Positions 14,016 to 33,904 of a DNA stretch of 37,263 nucleotides are shown here, piece after piece. The stretch comes from a virus, in IMG/VR virus record IMGVR_UViG_3300044608_002757, positions 1-37,263 of that record, one strand, 5' to 3'. The notes below the pieces were generated by a model, which saw nothing but the letters and a program-made list of their open reading frames with translations, made no database searches and was not told the DNA's origin. The translations under genes were made by a program, and so were the position numbers. Position 1 is the first letter of the stretch, and each line of letters opens with the position of its first letter.

Positions 14016-15053
14016 CTATTCTCCCTGCTGTTCTGCTGCTGCGTTGTCGGTGTCGGTGTCGGTGTCGTTGGTTTGCTCGGCGTCGGCTTGTCGCTTCTCT
14101 TCGAGCTTGGCAGAGACGGCGTTTGCGATCTCCGCGATGTCGAACCCTTGCGCCAGGCCCTCACGAACCTTGAGCGCGAGCATCTCGTCGCCCAGCTCGA
14201 CGAGCCCGGCTTCGATCTGCGCCTTGAGCGCGTCGTGCTGGCGGCTGCCGTTGGCGAGTGCTGCTTCGAACTCGTGCCACGACAGCGGCAGACGGGCAGG
14301 AAGGCTTGCGCGGTTGCCCGCGTCGAAAGCCGGGCTGTTCTGCGTGTAGATGTACCGCGCACCGTCGCCAAAGGCCTTGGTGCGCTTGGTCTTCTCGTCG
14401 CTGCGGACGAACACTTCCTGCTTCACGAAGAGGATGTGCTGCACCCATTGCTTGACCGGGCCCACGAGCCGCTTGTCGGCGGCCACCTCGTAGCGCTCGA
14501 ACTCGGGGCCCAACGGGTCGTGGAACATCTTCACCGCCGAGTGCGCGATGAAGAGAATGTTCATGCCACGAAGCCAGCAGCGCTCGACCGCGGCCATGAA
14601 CTGCCGCCATCGCGTCGTCATCTCCTGATAGCCCGCACCGTGGCCACCGCCCCACTTGGCGAGCGAGCCGCCGTTCGGGATGATGCCCCGCACGAGAATG
14701 GCCTCGAACCAGCCGAGCGGGTCGATGACGATGGTTTTGACTCCGTGCGCAGCGCCGTTCTCCTCGAGCTCGGCCAGGGCGTCGAGCACGTCGGCCCACG
14801 TCTCGGGCTCCGGCATGCGGCGGACGTTGAGATGGCCAGTGCCCTTGTCGGCGCCGAGCCAGATCGCCCCCGGCGCACCAGCGGCAAAGGTGCTCTTGCC
14901 AAGCTTCTCTTCGCCGTACAACAGAATGCGGAACGGCTCGACGACGATGCCGCTCGTGGCTGCTGCCAGGCTCATGCGCCGGGCTTTGGGTTTGGGGGTG
15001 GTGGGGGTGAGTCCGGTGGGTTGCGGCTTACCCTGCATCGCCGTGATGTTCAT
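14016..15053 (-). CDS. Sak4-like RecA-type recombination ATPase
   Basis: 345 residues from ATG 15053 (MNITAMQGKPQPT). Walker A is GEEKLGKS (residues 47-54), Walker B is KTIVIDPLG (D111), and a sensor-like MNILFIAHS segment follows, as in phage Sak4/AAA_24 single-strand annealing or recombination ATPases. It ends in an Asp/Thr tail (NDTDTDTDNAAAEQQGE) encoded by short ggtgtc repeats. It is followed at once by the SSB-like gene and preceded by a nuclease upstream in the operon, forming a recombination module. The frame stays open to 15152, but that part is CRISPR spacer and repeat remnant; it creates a false second copy of RILLYGEEKLGKS. Confidence 0.85.
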   Translation of the reverse strand: MNITAMQGKPQPTGLTPTTPKPKARRMSLAAATSGIVVEPFRILLYGEEKLGKSTFAAGAPGAIWLGADKGTGHLNVRRMPEPETWADVLDALAELEENGAAHGVKTIVIDPLGWFEAILVRGIIPNGGSLAKWGGGHGAGYQEMTTRWRQFMAAVERCWLRGMNILFIAHSAVKMFHDPLGPEFERYEVAADKRLVGPVKQWVQHILFVKQEVFVRSDEKTKRTKAFGDGARYIYTQNSPAFDAGNRASLPARLPLSWHEFEAALANGSRQHDALKAQIEAGLVELGDEMLALKVREGLAQGFDIAEIANAVSAKLEEKRQADAEQTNDTDTDTDNAAAEQQGE

Positions 15054-15081: not shown

Positions 15082-15822
15082 GTTGGTTGTTTGCTCTTGC
15101 CGAGCTTCTCTTCGCCGTAGAGCAAGATGCGGTTGCAGTTGACGGGCTGCACCCCGTTGGTTGTTTCGCGGGGCTATGCGCCTGCCCGGTATGGCTCCGG
15201 GCGCCGTTGCAGGTATCGGACTGCACTCCGTTGGTTGTTGGTTCGAAGCTTGAGCTCCGCCTGGGTGGGAACAAAGGGTTGCAGGTGACGGACTGCACTC
15301 CGTTGGTTGTTGGGTCGAGAGCGGCCCAGAGGACTTGTCGATTACCTCGTTGCAGGTGACGGACTGCACTCCGTTGGTTGTTGGTTGGAGCGCTACAAGA
15401 AGAACCCCGTCGTGCTGTGGTTGCAGGTGACGGACTGCACTCCGTTGGTTGTTGGCAGCGTCGCCGCGTGGCTTCTGCGCTCGCACGCCATGTTGCAGGT
15501 GACGGACTGCACTCCGTTGGTTGTTGGGTCGAGAGCGTGATCGATGTGCATGGGCAGCGGCTCCTTGTTGCAGGTGTCGGACTGCACTCCGTTGGTTGTT
15601 GGCACGAGGCTGGGGTAGCCCACGGTAAGCAGCAGTGGGTTGCAGGTGTCGGACTGCACTCCGTTGGTTGCTGGGCCGCGAAAGCGCTGCTCAAGAGGGC
15701 GTTTTGCTCTTCGTTGCAGGTGTCGGACTGCACTCCGTTGGTTGTTGGAAGCAGGGGGCCAGCTGGCCGCGCTTCCGTCAGAATTCGTTGCAGGTGTCGG
15801 ACTGCACTCCGTTGGTTGTTGG
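15082..15822 (-). CRISPR. Type V-like CRISPR array: ten 36-bp repeats, one partial repeat, ten spacers
   Basis: Full repeats start at 15132, 15206, 15278, 15349, 15420, 15492, 15567, 15639, 15713 and 15787 (plus strand begins gttgcaggtg and ends gttggttgttgg). Spacers are 35-39 bp. A further 12-bp remnant (gttggttgtttg, 15082-15093) bounds a tenth spacer at 15094-15131. The repeat at 15132 is degenerate. On the minus strand each repeat ends in tgcaac, like several type V repeats, and degeneracy lies at the low-coordinate end, so transcription is taken as minus, co-directional with the effector. The stems tgcag/ctgca are kept in every full repeat. No Cas1, Cas2 or Cas4-type adaptation operon is in the window. 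Confidence 0.97.
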
Positions 15823-15829
15823 GGCATCG

Positions 15830-17134
15830 CTAGGCCGCTTTTGATATCGATGGTCTGGAAGCGATGTTGCGAGCGGCGTTCACGTCGCGGTCTTCTCGAT
15901 GCCCGCAAGCCGGGCATTCACCGAACCGGCCGTGAGCGTAAGACCACGATTCTTTGGACCTATGCCCACACTGCGAGCAGTCCTGGCTTGTGAAGCGAGG
16001 GTCCACCTCTCGCACGCGGTCGCCGTAGCGCTCCACCAGCATGTTCTTGAGCGTGCGCATGGTCGACACCTTGACCGACCCCATCTGCCCGATGTGAGCC
16101 GGCAGCTTCTCCAGCTTGATGACCTCTGCCGTTGCAACGTGAGGCATGACCCGTGAGTAGTATTCGTGCCGGACTCGACGCGCGGCGCGCCTCTGCATGC
16201 GCCACGTTGTCTGCTCGTACCTGCGCCGATCTTCCGCGCTTTCTATGGTTCGCGAGAACGCCTGCCTGCCGGCGATGCGCTCGGAAAAAGCTTTGCCGCG
16301 ATCGTTCGAGACGCGTAGCCCGTCGCTCGTTGCGACAAGAAAATCTAGGCCAACATCAAGGCCAACTACACGACCGGGCTCCACTGGCGGCAACTCACGC
16401 GCCGCAACTTCGACCTTCAGTGATGCCACCCACTCGCCTGCGGTGTTGGTGATTGTCACCCCTTCCAGCACGCGTCCCGGCGGCACGCGCCCGGGGAGCC
16501 TGGCAGCTATCTTGCCGATAGACGGAAACCCGACTGCGCAGTTGTAGAAGGTCTTGCCGCGGCGTTGGCCGAAGTCCCCCAAGAAGAAGTGAGCGCCTGA
16601 ACGCACCTGCATTGGCATCGAGTCATGCCGTCGACGGTGCTTCTTTCGCCGCGTTGACTTCGTATAGAAGTTCTTCACCAAGGCTTGCAGCTCGTGAGCG
16701 GACAACGTCACGTCTGCGAGCGGCCCCTGGCGGTGGCGAGACATCAGCCACTGGTAATCTTGCTTGAAGCCGAAGTGGGCGCAGTAGTCTTTGACCGTTC
16801 GACGGGAGCACTCCGGGCGACCTCTCGTCACCTCGAAAACAGACTTTGCCCACGCGGACATCGACGACTCGTAGGCTTTCCTCGCGTCGCGAGAGTCGTC
16901 AGGCGAAAGCCCGTCGTAGTCAGGCCGCTTCGGCTTCGGAGTGACCAGGCCCTCGCGGATTGCGAAGGCCTCGATGGCCGCATTGGCGTCGTCTGCCCGA
17001 TGCACAAGTTCGTTCCAGAGCAGCCGTGTGGCGTCCTGCTTTTTGAGCAGGGCCTCTTCCTGTTCTTTCGTCGGGTACAGCTTGACCAGGAATCCGCGCA
17101 ATTCATGGCCTTCTTTCACTTCGAACTTTTTCAC
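15830..17134 (-). CDS. Compact TnpB/Cas12-like RuvC nuclease (putative type V CRISPR effector)
   Basis: 434 residues from ATG 17134, in an ATGA overlap with the 70-aa gene. Residues 13-46 (GFLVKLYPTKEQEEALL...) match the N-terminal OrfB/TnpB helix-turn-helix. RuvC-I is VVGLDVGLDF (D260), RuvC-II is VIKLEKLP (E342), a zinc finger uses C386, C389, C407 and C410, and RuvC-III is DRDVNAARNI (D417). All catalytic acids are present, so DNA cleavage is expected. There is no TnpA and no IS605-type end, and the stop codon lies 7 bases from the first CRISPR repeat. The size fits TnpB and the smallest Cas12 proteins (Cas12f/n range). Most likely a CRISPR-guided nuclease acting on rival phage DNA; a domesticated TnpB with an accidental neighbour is the alternative. 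Confidence 0.88.
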   Translation of the reverse strand: MKKFEVKEGHELRGFLVKLYPTKEQEEALLKKQDATRLLWNELVHRADDANAAIEAFAIREGLVTPKPKRPDYDGLSPDDSRDARKAYESSMSAWAKSVFEVTRGRPECSRRTVKDYCAHFGFKQDYQWLMSRHRQGPLADVTLSAHELQALVKNFYTKSTRRKKHRRRHDSMPMQVRSGAHFFLGDFGQRRGKTFYNCAVGFPSIGKIAARLPGRVPPGRVLEGVTITNTAGEWVASLKVEVAARELPPVEPGRVVGLDVGLDFLVATSDGLRVSNDRGKAFSERIAGRQAFSRTIESAEDRRRYEQTTWRMQRRAARRVRHEYYSRVMPHVATAEVIKLEKLPAHIGQMGSVKVSTMRTLKNMLVERYGDRVREVDPRFTSQDCSQCGHRSKESWSYAHGRFGECPACGHREDRDVNAARNIASRPSISKAA

Positions 17135-20097: not shown

Positions 20098-20726
20098 GCG
20101 TGGACCCCGCAGACCTCGAGGGCTGCATCGATGCCCTGCACGCGCTTGCCGGCGCAGACGATGACGAGCAGCTAACGTCGCTGGGGCTCGCAAAGCGCCT
20201 GCTTGGCCCTTCGAGCGTGTTGCGCGTGCCGAACTTGCAGGTGCAGGGATGCATCTCGACCGTCGACCACCACACCGTCATCATCGTCCGCAAGGGGCTC
20301 GACAGAGCGCGCGAGCAGCACGTGATCGGGCACGAGCTGGGGCACTGGATCCTTCGGCGCGAGGGCGTGACCGTCGACGACGAAGATGCCCTCGAGTCTG
20401 CGTGTGACTACGTCGGCGCGGGCATCGTCATCCGTCGGCGGCCGTTCGCTCGTGTGCTCCGCGGGGGCTACACGCTGCCCGAGCTTGCCGCGCACTACCG
20501 CACCAGCGAGACGCTCGTCGCCCTTCGCCAGGCCGAGGTGACCGGACAGCCGCGGGCAGTCGTTGCCCCGCATGCGGTGCGTGTCCGTGGGCAGCTCGAG
20601 TTTGTGTGGCCCGAAGAGCGGACGCTACGCCGCTGGGCAACGGGACGCGCTGCCCCCGGCGTCGTCAAGGTGCGGCTCAAGGATGATCCGCGGCGCGTCG
20701 TGCTCGACCCGCAAGAGACGGGCTAG
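20085..20726 (+). CDS. ImmA/IrrE-like metallopeptidase
   Basis: 213 residues; I use GTG 20085, but TTG 20094 (TTGA overlap with the previous stop) and GTG 20100 are also possible. HVIGHELGHW (H83, E84, H87) is the zinc-binding HExxH motif and E104 in DALESACDYVGA is a likely third ligand, as in ImmA/IrrE (COG2856) peptidases. A C-terminal region follows (LEFVWPEERTLRRWATG). In ICEBs1-type systems ImmA cleaves the phage-type repressor to trigger induction. The repressor gene here is convergent and lacks an S24 self-cleavage domain, so it is the likely substrate. The two genes share a CTAG that supplies both stop codons. Confidence 0.8.
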   Translation: MGTLSVDPADLEGCIDALHALAGADDDEQLTSLGLAKRLLGPSSVLRVPNLQVQGCISTVDHHTVIIVRKGLDRAREQHVIGHELGHWILRREGVTVDDEDALESACDYVGAGIVIRRRPFARVLRGGYTLPELAAHYRTSETLVALRQAEVTGQPRAVVAPHAVRVRGQLEFVWPEERTLRRWATGRAAPGVVKVRLKDDPRRVVLDPQETG

Positions 20727-21250
20727 TGCCGCTTGCGGCGCGCAGGCGGGCCCGCAGGCGGCGGATCGTCGTCGGTAGCGTCGAAGACGATGTGCAGGTT
20801 CTTGCCGCGTCGCCTGGAAATGGCGAAGTGGGCCTCGATGGCGTTGGCTATGGCCTCCGCGCTCCTGGCCCCCGAGAACGACATCTCCTCGAGCTTGCTC
20901 GCGAAGGCAACACGCTCCGTCAGCTTCGAGCCCTTCAAGAAAAGCCGAAGGCCTCGCTCGAACGACGTGTCGTCGACACCCTCTGGCGGGTCGAACTGCA
21001 TCTGCCCGTTCTTGCCAATCGAGTCGACACCATGCACCAGCCACGTGGCAGTGACGCCGAGCGCCTCGGCCACTTTGTCGAGGTCCGCTTGTGACTTGTC
21101 GCGCCGCTCCTCTTTGCCCCAGTTCACGATCATGCTCGCCGACACCCCGGCCTCGCTCGCGAGCCTGCGGATAGACCAGTTGAGCGCGCCCAAGCGCTCG
21201 TGAATGCGCTTGCCAATTTCCGTTGTGACGACCGCTTTCGGACCAGGCAC
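20723..21250 (-). CDS. CI-like transcriptional repressor
   Basis: 175 residues from GTG 21250; ATG 21295 (190 residues) is possible but would put operator O2 inside the coding region. After VVTTEIGKRIHERLGALNWS, the segment IRRLASEAGVSASMIVNWGK is a clear XRE-type helix-turn-helix, followed by LDKVAEALGVTATWLVHG, typical of phage repressors. The C-terminal domain is helical and ends in PPARRKRH; no S24 peptidase motif is visible. It probably binds the GTTCCC/GGGAAC operators at 19296, 21271 and 21316, holding both early promoters off. Confidence 0.82.
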   Translation of the reverse strand: MPGPKAVVTTEIGKRIHERLGALNWSIRRLASEAGVSASMIVNWGKEERRDKSQADLDKVAEALGVTATWLVHGVDSIGKNGQMQFDPPEGVDDTSFERGLRLFLKGSKLTERVAFASKLEEMSFSGARSAEAIANAIEAHFAISRRRGKNLHIVFDATDDDPPPAGPPARRKRH

Positions 21251-21270
21251 GCGGGCATCTTGCCGTGACC

Positions 21271-21286
21271 GTTCACAAGTGGGAAC
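21271..21286. promoter_or_regulatory. Operator O2 (gttcacaagtgggaac)
   Basis: One perfect GGGAAC half-site and one imperfect half (GTTCAC), lying just upstream of the chosen repressor start. A weaker site here would fit autoregulation of the repressor. An additional GAACGTTC palindrome lies at 21296-21303. Confidence 0.65.
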
Positions 21287-21306
21287 CGTCAGCATGAACG
21301 TTCTCT

Positions 21307-21336
21307 GTTGACAACGTTCCCGGTTGGGAACATGGT
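21307..21336 (+). promoter_or_regulatory. Early-right promoter with operator O3
   Basis: TTGACA (21308-21313), a 17-base spacer and CATGGT (21331-21336); the spacer carries GTTCCCGGTTGGGAAC (21316-21331). The layout mirrors the early-left promoter base for base over GTTGACAACGTTCCC. Transcription would start near 21343, two bases before the ATG of the Cro-like gene, so this message also appears leaderless. Confidence 0.82.
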
Positions 21337-21344
21337 TGCCAACG

Positions 21345-21599
21345 ATGACACACGCGAAGAGCACCCCCGCGCCCGCTGCGAAGGTCGGCCCCTACTACTC
21401 GCGTGGTGCGCAGGCGCTGCGCAAGACACTCGAGAGGCTTGGCCTGTCGATGTACGGCTGCGCGCGCAAGCTGGGTGTGTCGACCGCGCAGGTGAGCGTG
21501 TGGGCCTCGGGCTCGCGACGACCGTCTCTGCGCTGGGCCCTCGCCCTCGAGAAGACTTACGGCATCCGGCCGCAGCTCTGGCTTGAGAACGCCAACTAA
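21345..21599 (+). CDS. Cro-like helix-turn-helix regulator
   Basis: 84 residues from ATG 21345. LERLGLSMYGCARKLGVSTA followed by QVSVWASGSRRPSLRWAL is a helix-turn-helix of Cro/YdaS type, with QVSVWASG as recognition helix. It is the first gene of the early-right operon and divergent from the repressor, the classic Cro position. It would repress the repressor promoter or early promoters during lytic growth. Stop TAA. Confidence 0.8.
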   Translation: MTHAKSTPAPAAKVGPYYSRGAQALRKTLERLGLSMYGCARKLGVSTAQVSVWASGSRRPSLRWALALEKTYGIRPQLWLENAN

Positions 21600-27249: not shown

Positions 27250-27563
27250 GCCTCGTCGAAAAGGAGAAGGAGCGTGACGGTCTCACCAAGGCGCGCGAGT
27301 TGCTTGTGGCATGCCTCGAGGCCGAGGCGAAGGGGCACCACTACATCCAGATCACCAAGAGCTGGTCACGCTCTCCGTACAACTGGGACGAAGTGCGCGT
27401 GCTGCCAGGGCTCTATGGGCGCATCGTTGGGCAGATCAGCGAAGAGCGGCACCTTGTCGAAGTGAAAGTGTCCGAAATGCGTGAGTGCCTCGAGTCACTC
27501 ATCGCCGCTGCTGAGCGAGCTGCCCAACGTACTGCCGAGCACATCCGAGACATCGACCGATGA
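27246..27563 (+). CDS. Hypothetical protein between helicase and primase, 105 aa
   Basis: TTG start at 27246 in a TTGA overlap; TGA overlaps the primase ATG. The protein (MSLVEKEKERDGLTKARELL...) is helical at both ends with a short aromatic middle (HHYIQITKSWSRSPYNWDEV). Function unknown; coupling suggests a replication accessory. Confidence 0.6.
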   Translation: MSLVEKEKERDGLTKARELLVACLEAEAKGHHYIQITKSWSRSPYNWDEVRVLPGLYGRIVGQISEERHLVEVKVSEMRECLESLIAAAERAAQRTAEHIRDIDR

Positions 27564-30235
27564 CACTCCCCACCGACGACACCCCGCTCACCGAAGCGGC
27601 GGTGCTCTACGCCGAGCTCGGCCTGCGCGTGCTGCCCGTGTGGGGCGTGCGCCAGGGCGGCGGCTGCGCATGTGGCAAGCCCGCATGCACGACGCCCGGC
27701 AAGCACCCCATCGAGCGCGCATGGCAAAAGAAGGCCTCGAGCGACCCCAACGCCGTGCGCGATGCTCGACGTGCTCACCCCGAGGCCAACGTGGGCCTCG
27801 CCATGGGTGGGGCCGAGCGCATCGTCGCGGTCGACATCGACGGCGCGACCGGCCGGGCATCGTGGGAAGCCATCGAGGCTGAGCACGGCCCTGCGCCGGT
27901 CACGCTGACCTCGGTGTCTGGTCGCGCAGATGGCGGCGAGCACCGCCTCTTTCGCGTGCCCTTGCACCTCGACATCAAGCAGCTTGGCAACCGCTCGAGC
28001 TTCCGGCACGCGGGCATCGACACGCGCATCGACAACGGGCAGATCGTCGTAGCGCCCTCGAGGCACGCATCCGGCGCGCGCTACCGCTGGGTGGTCGAGG
28101 CGCCCATCGCCACCATGCCCGACTGGCTGTTCGCTGCCCTGGCGTCGCCGCAAGAGGCCACGCGCCGAGCTCCGCCTGCAGCCCCGCCGTCGGCCCCCTC
28201 GGCACCAGCGCCCACTGCAGCATCGCCCGCCGCTGGTGTCGCGAACTACCTCTCGACGGCGCTGCGCAACGCATGTGACCGCATCCGCACGCAGGCATCG
28301 GGCGGCCGCAACGCGCTGCTCTTCGCCAAGGCCACAACACAGTTCGAGTACTGCATCGGCGAGAACGTCCCGCATCTCGTCGCGTGGAACTCGCTCTACG
28401 AGGCCGGCGTCGCGTGCGGCTTGCCTGCGCAAGAGGTGGGCAGCGTGCTCGCCAAGGCATGGCGACAGGCGCAGGCCAACCCGCGGCGCGTGCCTCCTGC
28501 CCAGCAGTCCGCGCCGACCACCTACCACCAGCCCAACGACGCCAGCTGGGCAGCCCCCGATGGCACCACCACTGCCCCCGATGGCACGACAACGCCAGCA
28601 GCAGAAGACTACGGCTGGCAGCAGACCATGCGCATGACGGGCGAGGGCAAGGTCAAGAACTCCTTTGGCAACGTCTGCAAGATCCTGCGCCACCACCCGC
28701 AGTGGAAAGGTCGCCTGACCTACAACATGATGCGCGTGGTGCCGTGCCTCGACGGCAAGCCGCTCAAGGATTCGGACATCTCGCGCATCCGCGAGGCCAT
28801 CGAGGGCACCTACGAGATCGCCCCCGAGCGCTCGACCGTCATGCAGGCCGTGAGCCTCATCGCGGAAGAGCATTCCTTCCACCCCGTGCAGGACTACCTG
28901 CGCGGGCTCGCTTGGGATGGCACGTCGCGCATCGGCCGCGTGTCCGCTGAAGTGCTCGGCACGCACGTCACCGACCTCGACCGCTGCGACGAGCGCAACT
29001 TGCTCAACAACCGCATGCTCGAGTGCTTCTTCGTGTCGGCCGTCGCGCGCGCTCTCGACCCTGGCTGCAAGGTCGACAGTGCGGTGGTTCTGCACGGTGG
29101 CACCGGCTTCCGCAAGTCGACCTTCTTCCGCATCCTCGGTGGCGAGTGGTTCGGCGACTCCTATGCCGACATCCGCAACAAAGACGGCGTGCTGCAGGTC
29201 CACGCGGCCTGGATCTACGAGTGGGCGGAGATCGACCGCATCACCACGCGCACCAACAGCAGCGACGTGAAGGCCTTCATCACCGTCGCACGTGATGACG
29301 TGCGGCCGCCCTACGGCGCGGGCGTCGTCAACATGCCCCGCTCGGGCGTCATCGTCGGCACCACGAACAGGCCCTTCCTCGACGACGAGACGGGCAACCG
29401 GCGTTTCCACCCGCTCAGCATCAACAAAAAGATTGACGAGAAGCGCCTCACCGAATGGCGCGACCAGCTATGGGCCGAAGCGGTGCACCTGTACCGCAAC
29501 GGCACGACCTGGTGGCTCACTGAGAACGAGGAGCGCCTGCACGAGGAGCTCTCCGACGAGCACACGGTCGAGAACCCGTGGGTGGACAAGATCGCCATGT
29601 ACCTCAACCGACCGGACCTGATGGCCAGCGGCGTGACGATTGCCGAGGTGCTCACGAAGTGCATGGGCATCGACCTGGGCAAGGTGCAGCGCGGCGACGA
29701 GACCAGGGCAGGGAAGGCCCTGCGGTCGCTGGGCTGGGCCGTGAGCCGAGAGCGCAAAGGCGCCGGCGCCAGGGTCCGACTGTACAAGCCCATCGGCAAA
29801 ACCCGCATCGCCGAAGAGCCTGGGCCAACCCTGGGCCAACCATCTTATGAGGTTGGCCCACAGGTTGGCCCACCTTTTGGCAAGCAATCTCAAGGACCTA
29901 CCTTGGTGGGCCAACCTGTCCAACCTGATCAGGGTGAAAATGAAAAGGGAAATGCAGAAAAGCAAATCCCTATGGTTGCCGAGACCCTGTTGGCCCAGCG
30001 GGCAGGTTGGCCCACCCCAACCAACCAACTGGAATCACAAGCGAAAAGGTGGGCCAACCTCGGGCCAACCTCATCCCCTGGTCCAACCTCTGGCGCCCTG
30101 GATGGCCCACCAGCACCCCCTCTCAGCGACTTTGCTGCCTTCCTCGAAGAGCAGGGCATCAACCCGCGACCGCCTGGACCGACGACCACACCCCAGCAGC
30201 AGACCCCCAACGGAGAGCCCCATGACGACCGATAG
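27560..30235 (+). CDS. PrimPol-VapE primase-helicase
   Basis: 891 residues from ATG 27560. Residues 10-190 are a bifunctional primase-polymerase: GKHPIERAW, catalytic VAVDIDG (D92, D94), GGEHRLFR (H128) and QIVVAPSRHASG. A PriCT-like helical region follows. Residues about 350-740 are a VapE-type helicase with Walker A GGTGFRKS (513-520), WIYEWAEID, and GTTNRPFLDDETGNRRF. The last 140 residues are low-complexity Gly/Pro/Gln and contain the iteron DNA. It would prime and unwind phage DNA at the origin, as in other self-replicating phages and islands. Confidence 0.9.
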   Translation: MTLPTDDTPLTEAAVLYAELGLRVLPVWGVRQGGGCACGKPACTTPGKHPIERAWQKKASSDPNAVRDARRAHPEANVGLAMGGAERIVAVDIDGATGRASWEAIEAEHGPAPVTLTSVSGRADGGEHRLFRVPLHLDIKQLGNRSSFRHAGIDTRIDNGQIVVAPSRHASGARYRWVVEAPIATMPDWLFAALASPQEATRRAPPAAPPSAPSAPAPTAASPAAGVANYLSTALRNACDRIRTQASGGRNALLFAKATTQFEYCIGENVPHLVAWNSLYEAGVACGLPAQEVGSVLAKAWRQAQANPRRVPPAQQSAPTTYHQPNDASWAAPDGTTTAPDGTTTPAAEDYGWQQTMRMTGEGKVKNSFGNVCKILRHHPQWKGRLTYNMMRVVPCLDGKPLKDSDISRIREAIEGTYEIAPERSTVMQAVSLIAEEHSFHPVQDYLRGLAWDGTSRIGRVSAEVLGTHVTDLDRCDERNLLNNRMLECFFVSAVARALDPGCKVDSAVVLHGGTGFRKSTFFRILGGEWFGDSYADIRNKDGVLQVHAAWIYEWAEIDRITTRTNSSDVKAFITVARDDVRPPYGAGVVNMPRSGVIVGTTNRPFLDDETGNRRFHPLSINKKIDEKRLTEWRDQLWAEAVHLYRNGTTWWLTENEERLHEELSDEHTVENPWVDKIAMYLNRPDLMASGVTIAEVLTKCMGIDLGKVQRGDETRAGKALRSLGWAVSRERKGAGARVRLYKPIGKTRIAEEPGPTLGQPSYEVGPQVGPPFGKQSQGPTLVGQPVQPDQGENEKGNAEKQIPMVAETLLAQRAGWPTPTNQLESQAKRWANLGPTSSPGPTSGALDGPPAPPLSDFAAFLEEQGINPRPPGPTTTPQQQTPNGEPHDDR
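29822..30088. repeat. Candidate replication origin: 9-bp iterons GGGCCAACC/GGTTGGCCC around an A-rich segment
   Basis: Eight perfect copies start at 29822, 29833, 29851(r), 29863(r), 29908, 30005(r), 30051 and 30062 (r = inverted), with an 8-base copy at 29989(r) and near copies ggtccaacc at 30080 and gtccaacc at 29918. They occur as close same-direction pairs facing each other. Between them, 29926-29972 is unusually A-rich for this genome (agggtgaaaatgaaaaggga). The encoded peptide is low-complexity linker, so selection acts on DNA. Lying inside the primase-helicase gene, as lambda ori lies inside O, this fits an iteron origin with a melting region. Confidence 0.75.
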
Positions 30236-30950
30236 CCCGACCACGCTGACGCCTGCCGCACTGCGCATTGCCGACGCTGAGGTGGCCGAGTACTTCACCG
30301 CGGCCATTGGGGTCCGTGCCCAGTCCTACGAGCCTGCCCAGACCGTCCACGCTGGGGGCGATGCTGACCTCTCCCTGCTCTCCCGTGGCGCCATGCGAGC
30401 CCGAGCTCGGCACGCTGCCATCGACCGCAGCATGCGCGAACTCGACCGCACCTCTCGTGGCGTGCTCGAGCTGGTCTATGGGTACGGTGCTGGCGCCCTC
30501 TCTGCTGATGCTGGGCAGTGCGATGGCTTGGTCAAGGGTCGAGATGGCTCCCAAGACGCCCTGGGCCTCCTACGGGTCGCTCTGGCGCCCAAGTGGGGCC
30601 GTGGGAGCTTCCTTCGCCTCGCCTTGCTTCAACCCAGGGCCATCGAGGCCTACGCCAAGCGGCACGATGGCAAGCAACCGTCTGCCGATGTCCTGCTGAC
30701 CTTCCTATGCGCCGAAGCTGGCCTTGGCCAAGCTCGAACGGGCTTCTTCGTCGCACTGCGCAACGAGTGCGAGCGACCCAGGCGCCGAGCTCTCGCTGCC
30801 TACGAGGGCTTCAGGCTTCAGCGCGTCGAACTCGAGAAACAGGAGGCCAGGGCACGCGAGGCTGACCGCGAACGGGCCTTCGACGCTGCCATGGGCAAGG
30901 TGCACGCAGCGCAACACGCACGGCTGTCTCGCCGCATGGGGTCCGCGTGA
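30222..30950 (+). CDS. Helical protein, possible late-gene regulator, 242 aa
   Basis: ATG 30222 after CGGAGAG, overlapping the primase end by 14 bases. MRARARHAAIDRSMRELDRT followed by SRGVLELVYGYG resembles the sigma-region-4/antiterminator-type helices of phage late regulators (LxxLpxxxrxVLELxYg). The C-terminal third is Arg-rich coiled coil (ELEKQEARAREADRERAF). Its place, last-but-one in the early operon before packaging genes, suits a late activator. The assignment is tentative. Confidence 0.55.
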   Translation: MTTDSPTTLTPAALRIADAEVAEYFTAAIGVRAQSYEPAQTVHAGGDADLSLLSRGAMRARARHAAIDRSMRELDRTSRGVLELVYGYGAGALSADAGQCDGLVKGRDGSQDALGLLRVALAPKWGRGSFLRLALLQPRAIEAYAKRHDGKQPSADVLLTFLCAEAGLGQARTGFFVALRNECERPRRRALAAYEGFRLQRVELEKQEARAREADRERAFDAAMGKVHAAQHARLSRRMGSA

Positions 30951-31339
30951 GCCCCGGTGCCAGCACCAGCAGTGGCACCAAGCTGCGGCACAAGCGCATC
31001 TGGACGGTCTCGGACTTTGCCGCGCACACGGGCCTGTCGCACTGGCAGGCCAAGCAGGTGCTCCTGCGGCTCGACGCCGAGCTGAACGGCATGCTGCTCA
31101 CTCGAGGCAAGGGTACCAATCGGCGCTACACCTTTGCCCGTGCAGCCCTCGCCAAGGCCAAGCCCGACCTCTTTGCCGAGTACTCCAGCCTCGAGGAGCG
31201 CATCGAAGAGCTTGAAACCGAACTCTCGACGCTCAAGGCCGAGCAACGTCGGCACATCCAGCAAACAGGCCAAAACACACGGGACATTGCCAAGATGCGC
31301 GCAGAGCGTTCAAGCTCTCATCGGCAAGCGTCAGCATGA
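30947..31339 (+). CDS. HTH and coiled-coil DNA-binding protein, 130 aa
   Basis: GTG 30947 in a GTGA overlap. RIWTVSDFAAHTGLSHWQAK followed by QVLLRLDAELNGMLL is a winged/MerR-like helix-turn-helix, then RGKGTNRRYTFARAAL as a wing, then a long coiled coil (SLEERIEELETELSTLKAEQ). It likely dimerises and binds DNA, for example as a small transcription factor or a terminase-like recognition protein. Last gene of the operon. Confidence 0.65.
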   Translation: MSPGASTSSGTKLRHKRIWTVSDFAAHTGLSHWQAKQVLLRLDAELNGMLLTRGKGTNRRYTFARAALAKAKPDLFAEYSSLEERIEELETELSTLKAEQRRHIQQTGQNTRDIAKMRAERSSSHRQASA

Positions 31340-32491: not shown

Positions 32492-33904
32492 ATGCTCACG
32501 CGAGACAAGTCCAGCGACCTCGCGTCGCGTCTCGTGCAGCGGTGGCATCCCGATCCCGTCCTTGTCGGGCGCGATCTCTTCAAGCTCAATCTCTGGCGGG
32601 GGCAACGCGAGTTCCTCGGCTCTATCGCCGCGCATGACCGGGTAGCTGTTCGCAGCGGCCACAAGTGCGGCAAGACCACTGGGGCAGCGTTGGCTGCGTG
32701 GTGGTGGCTGCTCACGCGCAAGCGTGCGCGTGTCATTCTCACGGCGCCCAGCTTCACCCAGGTCGACGAGGTGCTCTGGGCTGAGGTCCGGCGCCTCTAC
32801 CGCTCGGCGGTCGTGCCCCTCGGCGGCAAGATGTCCGTCGACCCCGGCACCGGCTACGAGACGGCAGACGGTCGGCAGATCATCGGCTTCTCCACCGACA
32901 AGCCAGAACGCGCGGCCGGCTTCAGCTCGCCGAACATCCTCATCATCGTTGACGAGGCGTCCGGCTACGACCGGAAGATCTTCGAAGCGCTGCTCGGCAA
33001 CATGGCCGGCGGTGCTCGCATCCTGCAGCTCAGCAACCCGACGCAGACGACGGGCTACTTCTACGACTCGTTCCACACCGAGGGCAGCACGTGGGTTACG
33101 CACCACATGTCCTCGATTGATTGTGCGCGCGAGTGGCCCCTCGAGCTTGGCCCCGATGCGATGGGCCTCGCCACCCTGAAGTGGTGCGAGGACCTGCTGC
33201 GAGACTTCGGCCCAGAAGACCCGCGCTACCACGTGCGCGTCTTGGGCAACTTCCCGGCGAACGACGAGAACAGCATGATTGTGCTGTCGCTCGTAACGCC
33301 AGCGCAGAGCCGTTGGACCCGTACGCCGGGCGAAGGCCCGCTGCAGTTCGGCGTCGACACTGCGCGCTTCGGTACCGACTACTCGGCAATCGCCTGGTCG
33401 CGTGGCCTCTGGGTCAGCGAGCCGTTCATGCTCAAGGGCTGCGACAATGTCGAGGTCGCTGGGCACGTGAAGCGCCTCATCCGCGAGCATCGACGCAGCG
33501 AAGACGAGCGCGTCGAAGTGCGCATCGACACTTCGAACAACGGCGGTGTCGCAGACATTCTTCGCGCCGGCGACGACGACAACATCGACGTGGTCGATAT
33601 GGTGGCGTCGGCATCGGCGACAGAAGGCACCGACTTCTCGCGATTGCGTGACGAGGTCTGGGGTGGCCTTCGGGCCTGGCTAAAAGCTGGCGGCTCCTTG
33701 CCACCGTGCAGGCTTCTGCAAGCAGACATCCTCTCGCCGCGGCTTGGCTTCGACGAGCGGGGCAAGCAGAAGGTCGAGAGCAAAAAAGAGATGCGGCGGC
33801 GCATTGGGCGCAGCACGGACCGGGCCGACGCCGTTGCGTTGGCGGTGTACCAAGAGGGTGGGGTTGCCACCGACTCAATCATCTTCGGCGGTCGCGCAGC
33901 GTAA
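32492..33904 (+). CDS. Terminase large subunit
   Basis: 470 residues from ATG 32492. The ATPase has Walker A RSGHKCGKT (54-62), ILTAPSFTQVDEVLWAEV, Walker B ILIIVDEAS (D154, E155) and motif III LSNPTQTTG. The RNase H-like nuclease starts with FGVDTARFGTDYSAIA (D289) and ends with DRADAVALAVY near 445. It packages DNA into the prohead and cuts genome units. Followed by a DUF935-type portal, it belongs with Mu-like or gp28-like terminases. Confidence 0.92.
   Translation: MLTRDKSSDLASRLVQRWHPDPVLVGRDLFKLNLWRGQREFLGSIAAHDRVAVRSGHKCGKTTGAALAAWWWLLTRKRARVILTAPSFTQVDEVLWAEVRRLYRSAVVPLGGKMSVDPGTGYETADGRQIIGFSTDKPERAAGFSSPNILIIVDEASGYDRKIFEALLGNMAGGARILQLSNPTQTTGYFYDSFHTEGSTWVTHHMSSIDCAREWPLELGPDAMGLATLKWCEDLLRDFGPEDPRYHVRVLGNFPANDENSMIVLSLVTPAQSRWTRTPGEGPLQFGVDTARFGTDYSAIAWSRGLWVSEPFMLKGCDNVEVAGHVKRLIREHRRSEDERVEVRIDTSNNGGVADILRAGDDDNIDVVDMVASASATEGTDFSRLRDEVWGGLRAWLKAGGSLPPCRLLQADILSPRLGFDERGKQKVESKKEMRRRIGRSTDRADAVALAVYQEGGVATDSIIFGGRAA

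Follow-up and report, generated by a model that had tools for sequence, protein, structure and literature searches.

The viral genome described here carries, within the 3′ end of the gene for its own primase-helicase, an array of 9-bp repeats (iterons) that very probably serves as the replication origin of the phage, of the type used by the self-loading initiator-helicases known as Rep in SaPIs and PICIs, as judged from its anatomy and from comparison with related loci. The window, meaning the whole stretch of DNA that was analysed, comprises 37,263 nucleotides (IMG/VR virus record IMGVR_UViG_3300044608_002757), and the terminase, portal and head genes in the record make it a genome of full phage type. 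The best reading is that a SaPI-type initiator-helicase origin was captured by the reading frame of its initiator. An iteron-type origin in the primase-helicase gene had been proposed by the first-pass annotation, and it now stands as a candidate well supported by anatomy, relatives and published satellite origins. The arrangement offers a rule for where VapE-type phages would start replication, namely at iterons of the vapE 3′ end whose inner copies are opposed across an AT-rich spacer, at a distance of about 100 bp. The same anatomy in full-length phages bears on the question of where satellite replicons came from, and in one stretch constraints on DNA and on protein overlap and leave a clear signature at codon positions.

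The initiator gene, its domains and the gene that follows are arranged as below.

27560-30235, plus strand: PrimPol-VapE (SF3/AAA+ helicase) initiator gene, 891 aa, from Pfam, PHROG and fold match
27602-28126, plus strand: Prim-Pol domain, residues 15-189 (Pfam PF09250, E 9e-39)
28898-29566, plus strand: VapE-like AAA+ helicase core, residues 447-669 (Pfam PF05272, E 2e-66; high-confidence model)
29576-29791, plus strand: C-terminal winged-helix-like domain, approximately residues 673-744 (helices and two final strands, pLDDT about 95)
29820-30235, plus strand: disordered C-terminal tail, the ORF segment in which the candidate origin lies (pLDDT mostly below 50; drop in GC3)
30222-30950, plus strand: next gene, no assigned function (ORF list), its first 14 bp shared with the end of the PrimPol-VapE ORF

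The PHROG match of the initiator gene is DNA helicase/primase. Confidence in a structural model of residues 348-891 is high as far as about residue 745, where its folded part closes with the winged-helix-like end, and beyond this pLDDT is mostly below 50, with disorder predicted from about residue 747 onward. The fold match is PriRep1 with dsDNA (7pds; Foldseek E 3e-29; VIA-align Z 32.1 over 384 residues), in an alignment that takes in the C-terminal domain (model 2-399), and the next matches are the primase-helicases of NrS-1 and SaPI5 (Z 12-15). The C-terminal domain of SaPI Rep recognises iterons directly 3′ of its own gene, and the corresponding domain of Cch2, the SCCmec helicase, binds repeats 3′ of the cch2 gene (PMC7581432); by analogy with these two proteins, the winged helix is likely the iteron reader of the phage. 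Covariation across loci, with the helicase core controlled for, was tried as a way of singling out the winged helix in this role and was rejected, since iteron similarity tracks identity in the winged helix about as closely as identity in the helicase core (partial r 0.21 vs 0.18, both significant). Two genes follow the array, and neither has a confident family match: the gene at 30222-30950 has no match in Pfam, PHROG or PADLOC, and the one at 30947-31339 encodes a small winged-helix/coiled-coil protein, with a coiled coil and a weak FaeA-like match (E 0.009, below the cut-off).

The 9-mer GGGCCAACC (in the other orientation GGTTGGCCC) has eight exact copies in the 37,263-bp record, as the first-pass annotation had counted, and all of them fall within the 249 bp of 29822-30070, whereas shuffled sequences hold a mean of 0.37 and a maximum of 3 (100 shuffles). 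An even spread of the 9-mer through the rest of the genome, which that annotation had named as the observation that would speak against an origin, is not what the scan found, with no copy outside the array. Near copies, with one or two mismatches, complete the set.

29822-29830, plus strand: iteron 1, exact GGGCCAACC (this and all other exact copies from an exact-match scan)
29833-29841, plus strand: iteron 2, exact
29851-29859, minus strand: iteron 3, exact
29863-29871, minus strand: iteron 4, exact
29908-29916, plus strand: iteron 5, exact, the inner iteron of the left array
29917-29925, plus strand: degenerate iteron with two mismatches, abutting iteron 5
29988-29996, minus strand: iteron 6, one mismatch, the inner iteron of the right array, opposed to iteron 5
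30005-30013, minus strand: iteron 7, exact
30051-30059, plus strand: iteron 8, exact
30062-30070, plus strand: iteron 9, exact
30080-30088, plus strand: iteron 10, one mismatch
30100-30108, minus strand: iteron 11, one mismatch

The earlier extent of 29822-30088 was thus right at its start and short at its end, which the last one-mismatch copy carries to 30108. Neighbouring copies are in many cases spaced 11-12 bp apart, about one helical turn, and they occupy both strands and all three reading frames.

Between the two halves of the array lies the A-rich stretch that had been noted before, now placed in the record's lowest-GC 60-mer, which starts at 29913 (GC 0.417 vs 0.66 overall).

29930-29972, no strand: A-rich spacer, candidate DNA-unwinding element (49% A; inside the lowest-GC 60-mer region)
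29847-30074, no strand: three nested inverted repeats from an inverted-repeat search, with a common centre at about 29960.5 and arms 29847-29859/30062-30074, 29862-29881/30041-30060 and 29905-29921/30000-30016

The inverted repeats found in the region are iteron pairs, approximately 10-260 bp apart. The two-fold symmetry that they describe is only suggestive in the record, where iteron positions taken alone are not significantly symmetric against randomised positions (p about 0.10), and it reaches significance in some relatives, for example L067 and L088. The cumulative GC-skew minimum at about 32-33 kb falls within 3 kb of the array, is uninformative and is not used here as support.

A close relative of the phage was searched for and none was found, the best protein identity being 43%, and a search of genome contigs for relatives of the PrimPol-VapE gene also returned none. 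In the nearest relatives, L003 and L004 (42-43% identity), the protein ends at the winged helix and repeats follow; those of L003 are of the AGGTCGGGACAG type and begin 43 bp past the stop codon, and those of L004 are of the AGGTCGGATCAG type and begin 41 bp past the stop, with one more copy just inside the gene end. We surveyed 112 non-redundant VapE loci for clusters of exact 8-mers from -500 to +700 relative to the vapE stop codon, a cluster being called significant when its observed value was reached by none of 60 shuffles. Such a cluster, with a sequence specific to each lineage, is present at the vapE 3′ end of 67 of the 112 loci; the strict test, which misses degenerate iterons, finds none in the other 45. 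By place, 57 of the clusters are downstream of the stop, 7 straddle it and 3 (the record, L017 and L080) are wholly intragenic, where two of nine entries in the straddling list start at -1 and, being present in the downstream list too, are counted as downstream. In the first set of loci, the cluster exceeds every other tile of its own locus in 44 of 55. The inner iterons are opposed across the central gap in 59 of 65 loci, the record included (binomial p 2e-12, an optimistic value given that related iterons are non-independent); their median spacing is 103 bp, and the spacer is lower in GC than the locus mean in 56 of 65. As a description only, given the same non-independence, among left-arm inner iterons ACC is present and GGT absent in 37 loci, and the reverse is true of 4. 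A pooled iteron logo was dropped as evidence, since a chosen reference had guided its alignment. Applied to lambda as a control, the same kind of scan recovers the annotated iterons in gene O (as 7-mers), and clusters 3′ of vapE also occur in a streptococcal satellite and in a phage of S. thermophilus.

Several loci of the survey showed further features. Pseudomonas-type loci (L006, L009, L020-L026, L028 and similar) carry GGTGGGACAG-type iterons about 380-650 bp past vapE, with a small gene between vapE and the iterons in L006 and L009. Part of the iteron region of Synechococcus phage S-LBS1 (L007:6160-6530) recurs about 254 bp later, up to near the end of that record, which reflects either duplication of the origin or an artefact of the assembly end. 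L014 has a second dense 8-mer cluster, GCCGTAGA in 11 copies, outside the vapE region of the locus.

The repeats of the record occupy the last 140 or so codons of the PrimPol-VapE ORF, past the last folded domain, and the array ends about 127 bp before the stop. GC3 is 0.87 over residues 1-755 and 0.49 over 29822-30112, the fall starting at about 29810 when followed in 20-codon steps, which indicates that the DNA rather than the protein is constrained. A similar fall is seen in L080, another phage, where different iterons lie inside the vapE ORF (GC3 0.80 to 0.48); L017 changes little (0.55 to 0.47), as would be expected of a gene whose GC3 is low from the outset. The tail is best taken as origin DNA brought into frame, because relatives stop right after the winged helix; that stop codon is missing here, and the frame consequently runs through the candidate origin, which would be translated as well, giving a disordered tail that reaches the next gene's start. 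An earlier suggestion that the tail had grown by iteron expansion yields to this simpler fit, as relatives place their iterons past the stop. Read-through to the following gene may keep the two genes translationally coupled. We regard it as improbable that the intragenic origin is a functional arrangement in its own right, in which coupling of the downstream gene or the tuning of firing by translation or transcription was gained at least three times (in the record, L017 and L080).

It is more improbable still that the intragenic place is an artefact, a sequencing error having removed the stop after the winged helix of an origin that is really intergenic. Such an error would agree with the rarity of the layout, as the origin lies wholly within the ORF in only 3 of the 67 loci and the record is the single sequence of this phage; and the open frame, once considered as coding evidence, is weak as such, being open by chance in about 3-6% of shuffles while a second forward frame is open too. 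Against it, the frame keeps coding-type GC3 until about 29810 and meets no stop until 30233, L017 and L080 have the same layout with different iterons, and in L080 the vapE stop codon overlaps the following ATG just as the ORF end does in the record. A single-protein query for relatives of L017 returned L017 itself only.

Capture of an origin, as preferred here, also has to be weighed against other roles for the repeats. Origin iterons often serve as regulatory sites too, so that the repeats might be transcription operators bound by VapE or by the small protein of 30947-31339, whose sub-threshold FaeA-like match would suit such a role; yet the array sits in the 3′ end of a gene and not at a promoter, and its two sets, with inner copies opposed around the lowest-GC spacer, recur 3′ of vapE in many lineages, which makes this account very unlikely. 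Slightly less credible again is a packaging (pac/cos) site bound by the small terminase subunit. Some packaging sites carry iteron-like repeats, and the gene for the large terminase subunit begins at 32492, some 2.4 kb downstream, but the cluster keeps its place at the vapE 3′ end across relatives, with terS, where it is annotated, away from the iterons (its start lies 2.7 kb past them in L008, a Staphylococcus phage, and 1.6 kb in L006, a Pseudomonas phage), and the same cluster is present in satellite L174, where the stretch examined has no annotated terminase gene. A protein-level repeat or recombination-driven low-complexity tail, whose DNA would have no role, agrees with the disorder of the tail and can practically be dismissed, since copies in three frames and both orientations encode different peptides and GC3 collapses exactly over the iterons.

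An origin captured by its initiator's frame can be compared with several known systems. In PICIs the origin lies 3′ of rep and consists of two iteron sets around an AT-rich region, and their pri-rep-ori segments drive plasmid replication (PMC6092414). The phage shares with SaPIs and PICIs an SF3/AAA+ initiator, there often primase-fused, that combines a primase, a self-loading helicase and a C-terminal DNA-binding domain (predicted in the record), and its candidate origin, at the 3′ end of the initiator gene, is built of the same elements arranged in like order. It differs in iteron sequence, in the genome that carries it, a full phage type rather than a satellite, and in the position of the array, which lies inside the coding sequence and not immediately 3′ of rep; thus, on the strength of this comparison, we call it a variant that would work like the SaPI/PICI Rep-ori and not a standard member. 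Among phages with VapE/PrimPol, Marinobacter phage PS3, Pseudomonas phage vB_Pae_U5, Synechococcus phage S-LBS1 and Staphylococcus phage SA137ruMSSAST121PVL have a helicase of the same family (about 30-33% protein identity) and an iteron cluster at the vapE 3′ end, whereas their iterons differ in sequence and lie past the stop or past one small gene. The layout had been likened to lambda, and the likeness holds for the intragenic position, both arrays being inside the initiator gene, and for nothing else. Lambda's iterons, four in number and 18 bp long, lie mid-way in gene O and have an AT-rich region beside them, in contrast to the 9-bp sets of the phage, which occupy the 3′ end of a PrimPol/SF3 helicase gene and have their inner copies opposed. 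Lambda O is an unrelated initiator without helicase or primase domain; Pfam and PHROGs assign Prim-Pol and VapE to the phage protein and list no O family. The pRN1 protein orf904 likewise joins PrimPol, SF3 helicase and winged helix, with an origin just downstream of its gene, which is however a stem-loop of about 100 nt without iterons; stem-loops were also proposed by those authors for PrimPol phages such as BIP-1 (PMC4234260). SCCmec Cch2 is a D5-type initiator helicase whose C-terminal domain, as noted above, binds repeats 3′ of its gene, and it differs in having only three 5-nt iterons, which are intergenic, and a primase on separate proteins (PMC7581432). We found no report of the origin of a vapE phage or of an intragenic vapE origin in the open literature, which does not prove absence.

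By the model that we infer from these systems, the C-terminal winged helix of PrimPol-VapE would read the 9-bp iterons, and helicase rings would assemble on both opposed arrays flanking the A-rich spacer. The spacer would then melt and the rings be loaded, and priming by the Prim-Pol domain would be followed by takeover by the host replisome.

Elsewhere in the record, 10 copies of a repeat of about 36 bp (GTTGCAGGTG[A/T]CGGACTGCACTCCGTTGGTTGTTGG) recur every 71-75 bp at 15125-15829 as a CRISPR-like array. Adjoining it, at 15830-17134, is a gene for a 434-aa protein with Cas12f1-like TNB and OrfB_IS605 domains (PADLOC Cas12f, E 3e-23; PHROG transposase, E 3e-36), and the sequence of 15125-17134 is possibly that of a phage-borne miniature type V system, for which a search for relatives returned only distant phage loci. 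A 30-bp near-duplicate (87%) links 14902-14931 in a neighbouring ORF with 15103-15132 at the edge of the repeat array. The protein encoded at 20723-21364 is repressor-like, and PADLOC gives it a CapH-like match (E 5e-8).
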